Assembly: GCA_016184105.1 (NCBI GenBank)
Contig: JACPDI010000013.1
Span: forward strand, 1-64,000
Length of the DNA: 64,000 nt
Source: Acidobacteriota bacterium
GTDB lineage: Bacteria; Acidobacteriota; Vicinamibacteria; Vicinamibacterales; 2-12-FULL-66-21
Reading direction: 5' to 3'
Each line of letters begins with the position of its first letter. Position 1 is the stretch's first letter. A model generated the notes under the pieces. It saw nothing but the letters and a program-made list of their open reading frames with translations. It did not search any database and was not told where the DNA came from. This document shows positions 46,701-49,930 of the stretch, one piece after another. The position numbers and the translations under genes were made by a program.

Positions 46701-47639
46701 ATGGCGAAGCGTCAGCAGACACCATCGGCAGGGCGCAGGACGGCGTCGCGGATCGCGGCCCGCCAGGCGACGTCCACGCGCCGGAAGCCGGCTGCGGCGG
46801 TGGAACCTGCGCGCACCAAGAAGCTGGAGCGCGTGAAGTTTCCGTCGGCGGTGCCGAGCGCCGCGCCCAGGCGGAGCGCCGCGGGCGCCGTCGAAGGCAA
46901 GTACGTCTACTGCATCATCAAGTCGGACAAGCCGCTGTACTTCGGCCCGCTTGGGCTCGGGCAGGATCCGGCGGAAGTGCACACGGTGATCTATCGCGAC
47001 CTGGCGGCCGTCGTGTCGAGCACGCCCATGGTGGTCCAGGATCCCACGCGGGAAAACGTTCTCGCGCACCAGCGCGTGAACGAGACGGTCATGCGCGACC
47101 ACACCGTCATCCCGATGTCGTTCGGCACCGTCTTCAAGACGGCGGACGACATCGTCGAGCTGCTCCGCTCCGCGTACGAGGCCTTCACCGACGTCCTCAA
47201 CAAGATGCAGGACAAGTTCGAGTTCGGTCTGAAGGTGCTGTGGGATCGCGATCAGACCATCCGCGACATCGAGAGCGAAGATGAGGACATCCGCCGCCTC
47301 AAGGGGGAGATTTCCAGCCAGACGGGGTCCACCTACTTCGCCCGGATGCAGTACGGACGGCTGATCGATCAGGCGCTGCAGGCGCGCTCGGAGCGGTACG
47401 TGGCGGAGATCTTCGACGCGCTGCGCGACGTGTCGGTCGCATCCCGTTCGAACAAGCCCATCGGCGATCGCATGATCATGAACGCCGCCTTCCTGGTTGC
47501 GCGAGACATGGAGCTGGCCTTCGACGCCCGGGTGAAGGCGATCGGCACGCGCTACGACAAGCTGACGTTCAAGTACACGGGCCCCTGGCCGCCGTACAAT
47601 TTCGTGAACATCCGGCTGAAGCTCGAACGGGCGCATTAG
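46701..47639 (+). CDS. gas vesicle protein GvpF/GvpL, long form
   Basis: A 312-residue protein of the GvpL/GvpF family, accessory proteins that bind GvpA and help start vesicle assembly. The family core begins at about residue 66 with GKYVYCIIKSDKPLYFGPLG and includes VIYRDLAAVVSSTPM, HQRVNETVMRDHTVIPMSFG and the C-terminal motif KYTGPWPPYNFVNIRLKLE. The N-terminal ~65 residues are a basic, disordered extension (RRTASRIAARQATSTRRKPA) not usual for the family. It is one of three GvpF/L proteins in the operon. Confidence 0.9.
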   Translation: MAKRQQTPSAGRRTASRIAARQATSTRRKPAAAVEPARTKKLERVKFPSAVPSAAPRRSAAGAVEGKYVYCIIKSDKPLYFGPLGLGQDPAEVHTVIYRDLAAVVSSTPMVVQDPTRENVLAHQRVNETVMRDHTVIPMSFGTVFKTADDIVELLRSAYEAFTDVLNKMQDKFEFGLKVLWDRDQTIRDIESEDEDIRRLKGEISSQTGSTYFARMQYGRLIDQALQARSERYVAEIFDALRDVSVASRSNKPIGDRMIMNAAFLVARDMELAFDARVKAIGTRYDKLTFKYTGPWPPYNFVNIRLKLERAH

Positions 47640-47649
47640 CACCCACCAC

Positions 47650-47886
47650 GTGTTCATTCTTGATTCGCTCCTGATCGGCGGGATCCGGTTCGTGCTCGAC
47701 AAGATCGCGGCCGCCGCCGACGAGGAGCTGAACGACGAGGCCGCGCTTCGCGAGCAGCTGCTGACCGCACAGATGCGGGTCGAGCTGGGCGAGATGAGCG
47801 AGCGGGAGTTCGCCTCGTTCGAAGCCACCATCCTCGAACGCCTCCGTGACATCCGCGAAGCGACCTTCGGCGGTGACGAAACGTGA
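47650..47886 (+). CDS. gvpG: gas vesicle protein GvpG
   Basis: A 78-residue protein starting at GTG. MFILDSLLIGGIRFVLDKIA followed by an acidic helical part (MSEREFASFEATILERLRDI) matches GvpG, a small accessory protein needed for vesicle assembly in haloarchaea and streptomycetes. It begins ten bases after the gvpF/L stop, and the next gene overlaps its last 14 bases. Its TGA is one base before the left arm of the family-2 palindrome. Confidence 0.85.
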   Translation: MFILDSLLIGGIRFVLDKIAAAADEELNDEAALREQLLTAQMRVELGEMSEREFASFEATILERLRDIREATFGGDET

Positions 47887-49930
47887 AAAAAGGGGTCGGG
47901 AGCCTTTTTACGAAAAACGTAAAAAGGCTCCCGACCCCTTTTTCTGGCGCCTGTTCGGAGGCAAAGGGGGCGTCGGCAAGACGACGTGCGCCGCCGCGTG
48001 GGCGGTGGCGCGCGCCAAAGCCGGCCTCCGCGTGCTGGCGGTGTCCGTGGACCCGGCGCACTCGCTCGGCGACGCGCTGGGCAGGCGTCTCGGCGCAAAG
48101 CCGGCCCGCGTGGCCATCGGGCGCGGAATGCTCGCGGCGCTCGAGGTCGATGCCGGGTCCGCCGTCGTCGCGTGGCTCAAGGAACGCCGGCCCGCGTTCG
48201 CGGCGCTGATCGAGCGCGGCACGCTCCTCGATCACGAGGACGCCGCCCGCCTGATGAAGCTGCCGCTGCCGGGACTCGACGAGCTTGCCGCGTTTCTCGC
48301 GATGACCTCGTTCGAGCGTGCCGGTGAGTACGACGAGATCGTCGTGGATACCGCCCCCACTGGGCACACCTTCCGGCTGCTCGAGGTCCCACGTCTCGTG
48401 CACGCCGTGGCCGACCTGTTCGCGGCCATGCACGGCCGCCACGCGATGGTCGCGCGCGCGCTGGGAGGATCGGTCGGCGCCGATCCGCTGGTCGAGGAGC
48501 TGCGCCGCGACGCGGGCGATGTCGAGCGCCGGCTGCACGACGCGTCGCAGTGCGCGATCTCGTGGGTCACGCTCGCCGAGCCCGTGACGATCCAGGAAAC
48601 CATCGACGGGATCCGATGGCTTCGCGGAGGCGCCTTTCCGCTGGATGCGCTCATCGTCAACCGCCTGACCCCGACGCCGCGGGGCGGCTGCCCCCAGTGC
48701 CGTGCCCGCGCGGAGTACGAGCAGGACGCGCTGGCGCCCCTCGCCGCACACGTGAGATCGCTTCGCGTGTCGCTCGTCGAGGATCAGGGGGCCGAGCCGC
48801 GTGGCGTTCCCGCGCTCCGGCGGATCGCGGCGGATCTCATGGCGGACCGTTCCGGCGTCCGGCTCGGCGCGACCAGAGCGAAGCGGGGGAGCGGCGCATC
48901 GGCCGCCGCGATCCGTCGCGACGCGGTCGAACCGGCACCCGCCGTGTTTGACGTACCCGCGTTTACGAGGCTGGTGCTGTTCGGAGGAAAGGGGGGCGTC
49001 GGCAAGACCACGTGCGCCGCGGCGAGTGCCATGAGCCTGGCGGCTGCAGAACCCAGGCGGCAGGTCAGGCTCATCTCCACCGATCCGGCGCCATCGCTCG
49101 GCGACGTGCTCGGCATGAAGATCGGCAACACCTGGCGGCCGGTGCCCGGCCGCTGGCATCTGCACGTTCGCGAGCTTGACGCCTCGACGGTGTTCGACGA
49201 ATACCGCCAGCGGTACCAGGGAGCCATCGCCGACTTCTTCGACCGTCTTGCCGCCGGATCCCCGTTTGACGCGACCGCGGATCGAGCCGTGTTCGAGCGG
49301 CTGTTCGACCTCGCACCGCCCGGCATCGACGAACTCGTCGCGCTGCTCGCCGTCGCGGACGTCTTGCGCGAGGGAGCCGACGATCTGCTCGTGGTGGACA
49401 CCGCGCCGACCGGGCACACGGTGCGGCTGCTGGGCATGCAGGCCGACGTCCAGCAGTGGGTCGCCCTGCTGATGCAGCTCGTGATCAAGTATCGGCTTGC
49501 GGCCCGAGCCGAATCGCTTGCCCACGACCTCGTGCATCTCTCGCGGGGTCTCCGGGAGTTTCGAGCGCTGCTCGGCGACCGCACGCGCGCACGGTTTGTG
49601 ACCGTCGTGCGCCCCGCCGTGCTGCCGCGGCTGGAGACCGAGCGGCTGCTCGACCAGCTGCAGCGCATGAACGTGCCGGCGCCCACGGTCATCGTCAACG
49701 GGGAGAGCAGCGGTGGGTGCGCGGCCTGTCGCCGGCGCGCCGAGGCGGAGCAGCGAGAGGTCGCCCGCATCGAGCGGCTGTGCGGCGCCTCGCGCCCCCC
49801 TTGCGATATCATGCACGCGCCGCTTCGGATTCCGCCGCCACACGGCGTCCAGGAGCTGCTCGAGTGGAGCGACTCGTGGCGAACCGGGCACACCGCCTCA
49901 GGCCGCCGCGGCGCGGCGCCTACATCATGA
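47873..49930 (+). CDS. tandem Get3/ArsA-type ATPase in the gas vesicle operon
   Basis: A soluble 685-residue protein with two fused Get3/ArsA domains. Each has the deviant Walker A FGGKGGVGKTT (about 29-38 and 371-380), the family motif DTAPTGHT followed by F/VRLL, and a CxxC pair (CPQC about 273, CAAC about 616). Get3 uses such a CxxC to bind the zinc that holds its dimer, so the protein looks more like a targeting chaperone than an arsenite pump ATPase. No arsB, arsC or arsR is present. GTG 47873 overlaps gvpG; an ATG at 47846 is also in frame. Between the start and the first P-loop, about 19 residues (RGREPFYEKRKKAPDPFF) are encoded by a palindrome. I infer a role in handling hydrophobic Gvp proteins. 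Confidence 0.8.
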   Translation: MTKREKRGREPFYEKRKKAPDPFFWRLFGGKGGVGKTTCAAAWAVARAKAGLRVLAVSVDPAHSLGDALGRRLGAKPARVAIGRGMLAALEVDAGSAVVAWLKERRPAFAALIERGTLLDHEDAARLMKLPLPGLDELAAFLAMTSFERAGEYDEIVVDTAPTGHTFRLLEVPRLVHAVADLFAAMHGRHAMVARALGGSVGADPLVEELRRDAGDVERRLHDASQCAISWVTLAEPVTIQETIDGIRWLRGGAFPLDALIVNRLTPTPRGGCPQCRARAEYEQDALAPLAAHVRSLRVSLVEDQGAEPRGVPALRRIAADLMADRSGVRLGATRAKRGSGASAAAIRRDAVEPAPAVFDVPAFTRLVLFGGKGGVGKTTCAAASAMSLAAAEPRRQVRLISTDPAPSLGDVLGMKIGNTWRPVPGRWHLHVRELDASTVFDEYRQRYQGAIADFFDRLAAGSPFDATADRAVFERLFDLAPPGIDELVALLAVADVLREGADDLLVVDTAPTGHTVRLLGMQADVQQWVALLMQLVIKYRLAARAESLAHDLVHLSRGLREFRALLGDRTRARFVTVVRPAVLPRLETERLLDQLQRMNVPAPTVIVNGESSGGCAACRRRAEAEQREVARIERLCGASRPPCDIMHAPLRIPPPHGVQELLEWSDSWRTGHTASGRRGAAPTS
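47887..47943. repeat. REP-like palindrome, family 2, in frame
   Basis: Perfect 26-base inverted repeat (47887-47912 and 47918-47943) with a five-base AAAAA loop. The arm core is GGGGTCGGGAGCCTTTTT. Its sequence is unrelated to the family-1 palindromes. It begins right after the gvpG stop and is open in the frame of the Get3-like gene. The transcript would carry a very stable hairpin between the start codon and the first P-loop. Confidence 0.9.

Follow-up and report, generated by a model that had tools for sequence, protein, structure and literature searches.

REPINs, as Bertels and Rainey reportedly described them in 2011, consist of two inverted REPs with a short spacer, are dispersed in the genome but patchy among relatives, and go together with RAYT transposases. 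Other mobile palindromes are found within genes. The Rickettsia palindromic elements (RPE), of about 150 bp, are translated in frame inside unrelated conserved proteins (PMC10969869). In the parts of the article by Di Nocera, De Gregorio and Rocco (2013; PMC3733652) considered here, dimeric palindromes are reported in frame in conserved genes, where they add 20-30 residues, and REPs are placed generally near the 3' ends of ORFs. The same parts describe TIRtrons (TIRYT), tyrosine transposase genes flanked by inverted repeats without GTAG, which are known from Acidobacteria.

The palindrome that we describe lies in a window (the whole stretch of DNA analysed) of 64,000 nucleotides from an Acidobacteriota bacterium, where it adjoins the end of gvpG and is open in the frame of a gas vesicle ATPase. 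It is a REPIN, in which a 23-bp repeat, AAAAAGGGGTCGGGAGCCTTTTT, is present twice in inverted orientation, and very probably it is translated as part of the ATPase. As in REPIN/RAYT systems, there are two inverted REPs, the copies are dispersed and patchy among relatives, and a tyrosine transposase gene flanked by the repeat is present in the genome. Unlike the canonical systems, this one has no GTAG tetranucleotide, its transposase scores below the NCBIfam RAYT cut-off, and about a quarter of the two-arm copies are apparently inside ORFs, not between genes. With the RPE it shares a palindrome that is open in frame and predicted to be read inside unrelated conserved proteins. However, its length of 57-68 bp, its candidate cognate transposase gene, its GC-rich genome and its lineage are all different. 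Membership among the Rickettsia palindromic elements was rejected on length and lineage, and the likeness is in the way of working only.

Judged by flanking repeats and motif, and by the parts of PMC3733652 considered, the anatomy of REPIN and transposase appears closest to the TIRtron/TIRYT kind. In-frame dimeric palindromes, copies near the 3' ends of ORFs and transposase-flanking repeats without GTAG are common to both. The repeat sequence is new, in contrast, and it matches the TIR motif GGGGWSAS published there at 7/8 positions (GGGGTCGG). The family is new, then, but its kind, an intragenic REPIN with a tyrosine transposase, is not, and the phenomenon itself is already known. No mention of a REP copy in a gas vesicle ATPase was found in those parts of the 2013 article.

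The junction between gvpG and the ATPase gene

The features of the locus, in coordinates of the window, are the following.

46701..47639, + strand: GvpF/GvpL gas vesicle protein gene (Pfam GvpL_GvpF, 250 bits)
47650..47886, + strand: gvpG (Pfam GvpG, 58.4 bits, cut-off 30.6), with the stop codon TGA at 47884-47886
47846..47848, + strand: alternative GTG (in the sequence not ATG), same frame as the ATPase
47873..47875, + strand: GTG within gvpG, 11 nt 5' of its stop, where the ATPase most likely starts; in frame with or without the 57-nt element
47873..49930, + strand: Get3/ArsA-type ATPase with two domains, belonging to the gas vesicle cluster; the REPIN makes up residues about 5-24
47883..47885, + strand: GTG that shares bases with the gvpG stop (GTGA) and is in a different frame from the ATPase
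47887..47943, + strand: REPIN, 57 bp = 19 codons, with the ATPase-frame reading ...KRGREPFYEKRKKAPDPFF
47887..47912, + strand: left arm, containing the first REP core GGGGTCGGGAGCC (47892-47904)
47918..47943, - strand: right arm, containing the inverted REP core (47926-47938)

Double Get3/ArsA-type ATPases are known from gas vesicle clusters (PMC2963123). The ATPase of the window has two GGKGGVGKTT P-loop motifs and belongs to the Get3/ArsA/TRC40 family (TIGR00345, 324.9 vs 135; Pfam ArsA_ATPase, 321.6 vs 24.3 bits). An arsenical pump ATPase of the ArsA type was considered and rejected, given 185 bits for TIGR04291 vs a cut-off of 650 bits and the gas vesicle genes around it. The GvpG encoded at 47650-47886 is without the C-terminal tail SPKDYKITGIEASFEG that other members of its family have.

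The first base of the palindrome adjoins the 3' end of the gvpG stop codon. Repeat finding gave two arms of 26 nt each, 100% complementary, around a 5-nt loop. The reading frame of the downstream ATPase is open across them, and the ORF reads ...AVTKREKRGREPFYEKRKKAPDPFFWRLFGGKGGVGKTT. The predicted RNA fold over 106 nt has -60.6 kcal/mol (z = -7.3), far better than shuffled sequence, and the hairpin followed by T5 gets an intrinsic terminator-like score on both strands. The preliminary description of this locus had claimed a perfect 26-base inverted repeat, an in-frame addition of about 19 residues and a strong mRNA hairpin near the ATPase start. All of this is borne out, the hairpin as a prediction.

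In an AlphaFold2 model of the ATPase, residues 1-20 have pLDDT <50 and the first strand comprises residues 24-30. Residue 24, where this strand begins, is also the last residue of the repeat. Because the model gives low pLDDT up to residue 20 and lets the first strand start only at 24, the extra N-terminal tail could well be harmless.

The repeat family, its candidate transposase and its in-frame copies

A search of the organism's own genome (G000) with the palindrome returned 58 matching segments at about 30 places, many of the segments being both strands of one palindrome. A scan with the core GGGGTCGGGAGCC, allowing <=1 mismatch, gave 57 matches vs 11 for the reversed control. Copies with two arms, in which AAAAAGGGGTCGGGAGCCTTTTT is followed by a middle part and then by its inverse over an inner length of 47-58 nt, number 23 with that of the window; single-arm copies occur at a few loci. 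The window copy is of a 57-bp subtype, and two sister copies of this subtype lie on contig C28. What marks a REP family, short palindromic repeats in inverted pairs and in many dispersed copies, is thus found here. A chance palindrome is rejected by the copy number in the genome. An assembly artefact is very unlikely because the repeat is only 57 bp long, its flanks are unique in the 120-kb contig and sister copies exist elsewhere. A search of 11 genomes from the same family detected no copy of the repeat. A close variant, with the core GGGGTCGGGTGCC and 42 matching segments, is present in a genome from a different family of the same order (L196 in G018). Since the repeat goes undetected in the same-family genomes and the other-family genome has it at up to 93% identity, the comparison suggests that it was acquired laterally. 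That the palindrome is a mobile insertion in the start region, as had been proposed before, is supported by its dispersal in the genome and by relatives that have no copy.

We searched the genome for a tyrosine transposase gene with the repeat on its flanks and found one on contig C21, a Y1_Tnp gene (L009:1389-2154) that has the repeat on both sides. The HUH motif PNHWHLV (HWH) and YVERN can be recognised by eye in the predicted protein, which scores 61.9 bits with the NCBIfam model REP_Tyr_transpos (REP-associated tyrosine transposase), under its cut-off of 80. A GTAG tag at the REP end is absent from AAAAAGGGGTCGGGAGCCTTTTT. The element is non-autonomous and would most likely be mobilised in trans by this HUH tyrosine transposase. 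In G030 a relative of the transposase has a related repeat, GGGGTCGGGAGTATTTTCA, at its flanks. In G018, where the sister repeat is abundant, no close transposase turned up with an E-value <=1e-8. The C-terminus of the C21 transposase, RKKAPDPFF, is encoded by the repeat itself. Further tyrosine transposase relatives in G000 lie at C18:52345-53001 (40% identity) and C17:40908-41357 (35% identity).

There are no stop codons in the repeat in any reading frame, and therefore insertions of 3n bases can be translated. Whether flanking ORFs are coding was judged from GC3 patterns and domain matches. Several copies in the genome are inside ORFs that stay open across them. A search for in-frame effects on other genes, proposed in the preliminary description, found such copies in MiaB (L042), MazG (L050) and YbeY (L047). 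At the site of the insert VKRGREPFSPDPSGKKAPDPIS in MazG (identified by an NCBIfam equivalog match), 9/10 relatives are 16-17 residues shorter and the tenth is about 14 shorter. In MiaB and YbeY the repeat occupies loops whose length varies among relatives. Three further candidate in-frame insertions, in a VWA-domain protein (L039), a putative membrane protein without a Pfam match (L037) and a zinc-ribbon protein (L170), are proposed on the basis of ORFs that stay open with coding-like GC3. Because copies are in frame inside MazG, MiaB, YbeY and these three ORFs, translation of the repeat is to be expected in this genome, and its in-frame reading in the ATPase is one case among several. In NuoM and a GAF protein the C-terminus is also lengthened by a repeat copy, and a cytochrome c-type protein as well as an alpha/beta hydrolase may owe their N-termini to one. 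At L044:279-1139 (-) and L167:1034-1666 (+) the repeat stands directly 5' of signal-peptide-like stretches (LLLLLCVAPAPAHA; LLCCLLAAASLVAC), and there it may provide N-terminal residues together with the start codon. Among the remaining copies, many start only a few bases away from a stop codon.

The start of the ATPase

Where does translation of the ATPase begin? The preliminary description named GTG 47873 and ATG 47846 as candidates. Both positions are indeed inside gvpG, but the codon at 47846 is GTG. No clear Shine-Dalgarno-like sequence is seen 5' of either codon. When the 57 nt (19 codons) are taken out, GTG 47873 stays in frame and reads MTKRDWRLFGGKGG; the element-free reading from this codon, MTKRDWRLFGGKGGVGKTT, resembles that of the relative L018 (MTTWQFVCGKGG). 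Since GTG 47873 is in frame without the element, this start is probably older than the insertion, the effect of which would have been to make a disordered N-terminal linker 19 residues longer. It is improbable, then, that the REPIN gave the gas vesicle ATPase a new start.

Palindrome-free relatives with gvpG directly upstream were gathered across the class, and the class set comprises 18 loci, mostly from metagenome-assembled genomes, in which a single sequencing error is possible at any one locus. The spacers from the gvpG stop to GGKGG vary (22, 25, 31, 40, 49, 94 nt and others). The frame offset from gvpG to the ATPase is +1 in 12/17 class loci with a placeable gvpG stop, the window included, and it is also +1 in the outgroup L058; L018, L019, L149, L150 and L153 do not have it. 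An offset of +1 despite variable spacers is expected if translation enters 5' of the gvpG stop. Such entry is supported, not proved, by the constant offset, to which shared ancestry also contributes. The spacers of L016, L150, L151 and L153 contain unrelated low-complexity repeats (of the GAAGTCTGAAG or CTTCCGTCTTC type), and because of these the junction seems tolerant of insertions in general. The comparison with operons lacking the palindrome, which the earlier account had called for, thus yields relatives that mostly keep the +1 offset. Two of its other suggestions find no support. Translation need not have been pushed upstream by the insertion, given the offset in most relatives and a GTG 47873 that is in frame without the element. 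Nor is it supported that relatives regularly start a few residues before the P-loop; in palindrome-free gvpG-linked relatives the only candidates are often inside gvpG or just 3' of it.

A further result was unexpected. In 7/18 loci (L013, L014, L017, L019, L148, L149, L155) the whole open frame 5' of the P-loop contains neither ATG nor GTG nor TTG. An ATG is found there in just 1/18 (L021), inside the first strand, and gvpG starts with ATG or GTG in 18/18 of the same loci. In L156 and L157, relatives without gvpG in front, the ATPase has an ordinary ATG start. Loci without a canonical start offer CTG or ATC instead, and for some of these the gvpG tail contains an SD-like GAAGG/GAGGG within its conserved FEG codons. 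A tentative suggestion, which we hold to be possible though rather doubtful, is that across the class translation of the ATPase encoded 3' of gvpG often does without a canonical start codon (beginning at CTG or ATC, in some cases with the SD-like sequence in the gvpG tail, or by recoding from gvpG), that this possibly keeps the ATPase scarce vs GvpG, and that the REPIN entered a junction that was already unusual.

The explanation that we consider likely for the window is as follows. A REPIN mobilised in trans would have landed directly 3' of the gvpG stop, with the older start GTG 47873 on one side and the ATPase's first beta strand on the other. It would have added about 57 nt net; the frame would be kept, and the ATPase would gain about 19 disordered residues. 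Translation of the ATPase is probably coupled to that of gvpG. Ribosomes finishing gvpG would halt right before the hairpin, where the gvpG ribosome would cover its 5' arm and keep that arm open, and re-initiation would take place 11 nt back at GTG 47873.

Other readings of the junction can be weighed against insertion behind an older GTG 47873. The ATPase might formerly have started just before the P-loop, for example at GTG 47883, until the insertion broke the frame and left the upstream start in use by default. GTG 47883 and the gvpG stop do form a classic GTGA overlap, and in the relative L018 a GTGA of such kind is in frame with the ATPase. Such a history is nevertheless unlikely: the insertion would have to be 2 mod 3 in net length (e.g. 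56 or 59 nt), whereas the repeat has 57 nt, an in-frame GTG would have to stand by chance 10 nt upstream, and the +1 offset in most relatives is the window's own, contrary to an older start at 47883. We think it quite improbable, too, that the palindrome is untranslated, with the ATPase starting at CTG 47951 and the hairpin serving as an untranslated leader or a transcription attenuator between the two genes. The terminator-like score of hairpin and T5 on both strands would fit, as would the many other copies just 3' of stop codons and the several relatives in which CTG is the sole in-frame NTG codon. However, CTG 47951 is residue 27, and a protein starting there would lose about half of the first beta strand as modelled (24-30); moreover, the frame is open across the repeat, as it would be if the insertion were coding, and at other loci the repeat clearly forms part of coding sequence.

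Lastly, GvpG and the ATPase could be joined by programmed +1 frameshifting in the gvpG tail, with the repeat inside the fused product. An offset of +1 in most loci and the missing ATG, GTG and TTG in 7/18 would be accounted for. Yet no conserved slippery site is seen in the gvpG tails, and L149, L150 and L151 cannot make a fused product by a frameshift within gvpG, because in-frame stops occur there at the gvpG stop or behind it. With these stops between the genes, programmed frameshifting from gvpG as a general mechanism is rejected for L149-L151, and for the window we regard it as very improbable.

Significance

A REPIN family that is in frame in the housekeeping enzymes MazG, MiaB and YbeY and in a gas vesicle ATPase acts in an RPE-like manner outside Rickettsia. 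With a candidate transposase gene in the same genome, the addition of peptides by mobile palindromes becomes testable with a defined enzyme. There is also a warning in these observations: predicted N-terminal extensions in such genomes can be mobile DNA.
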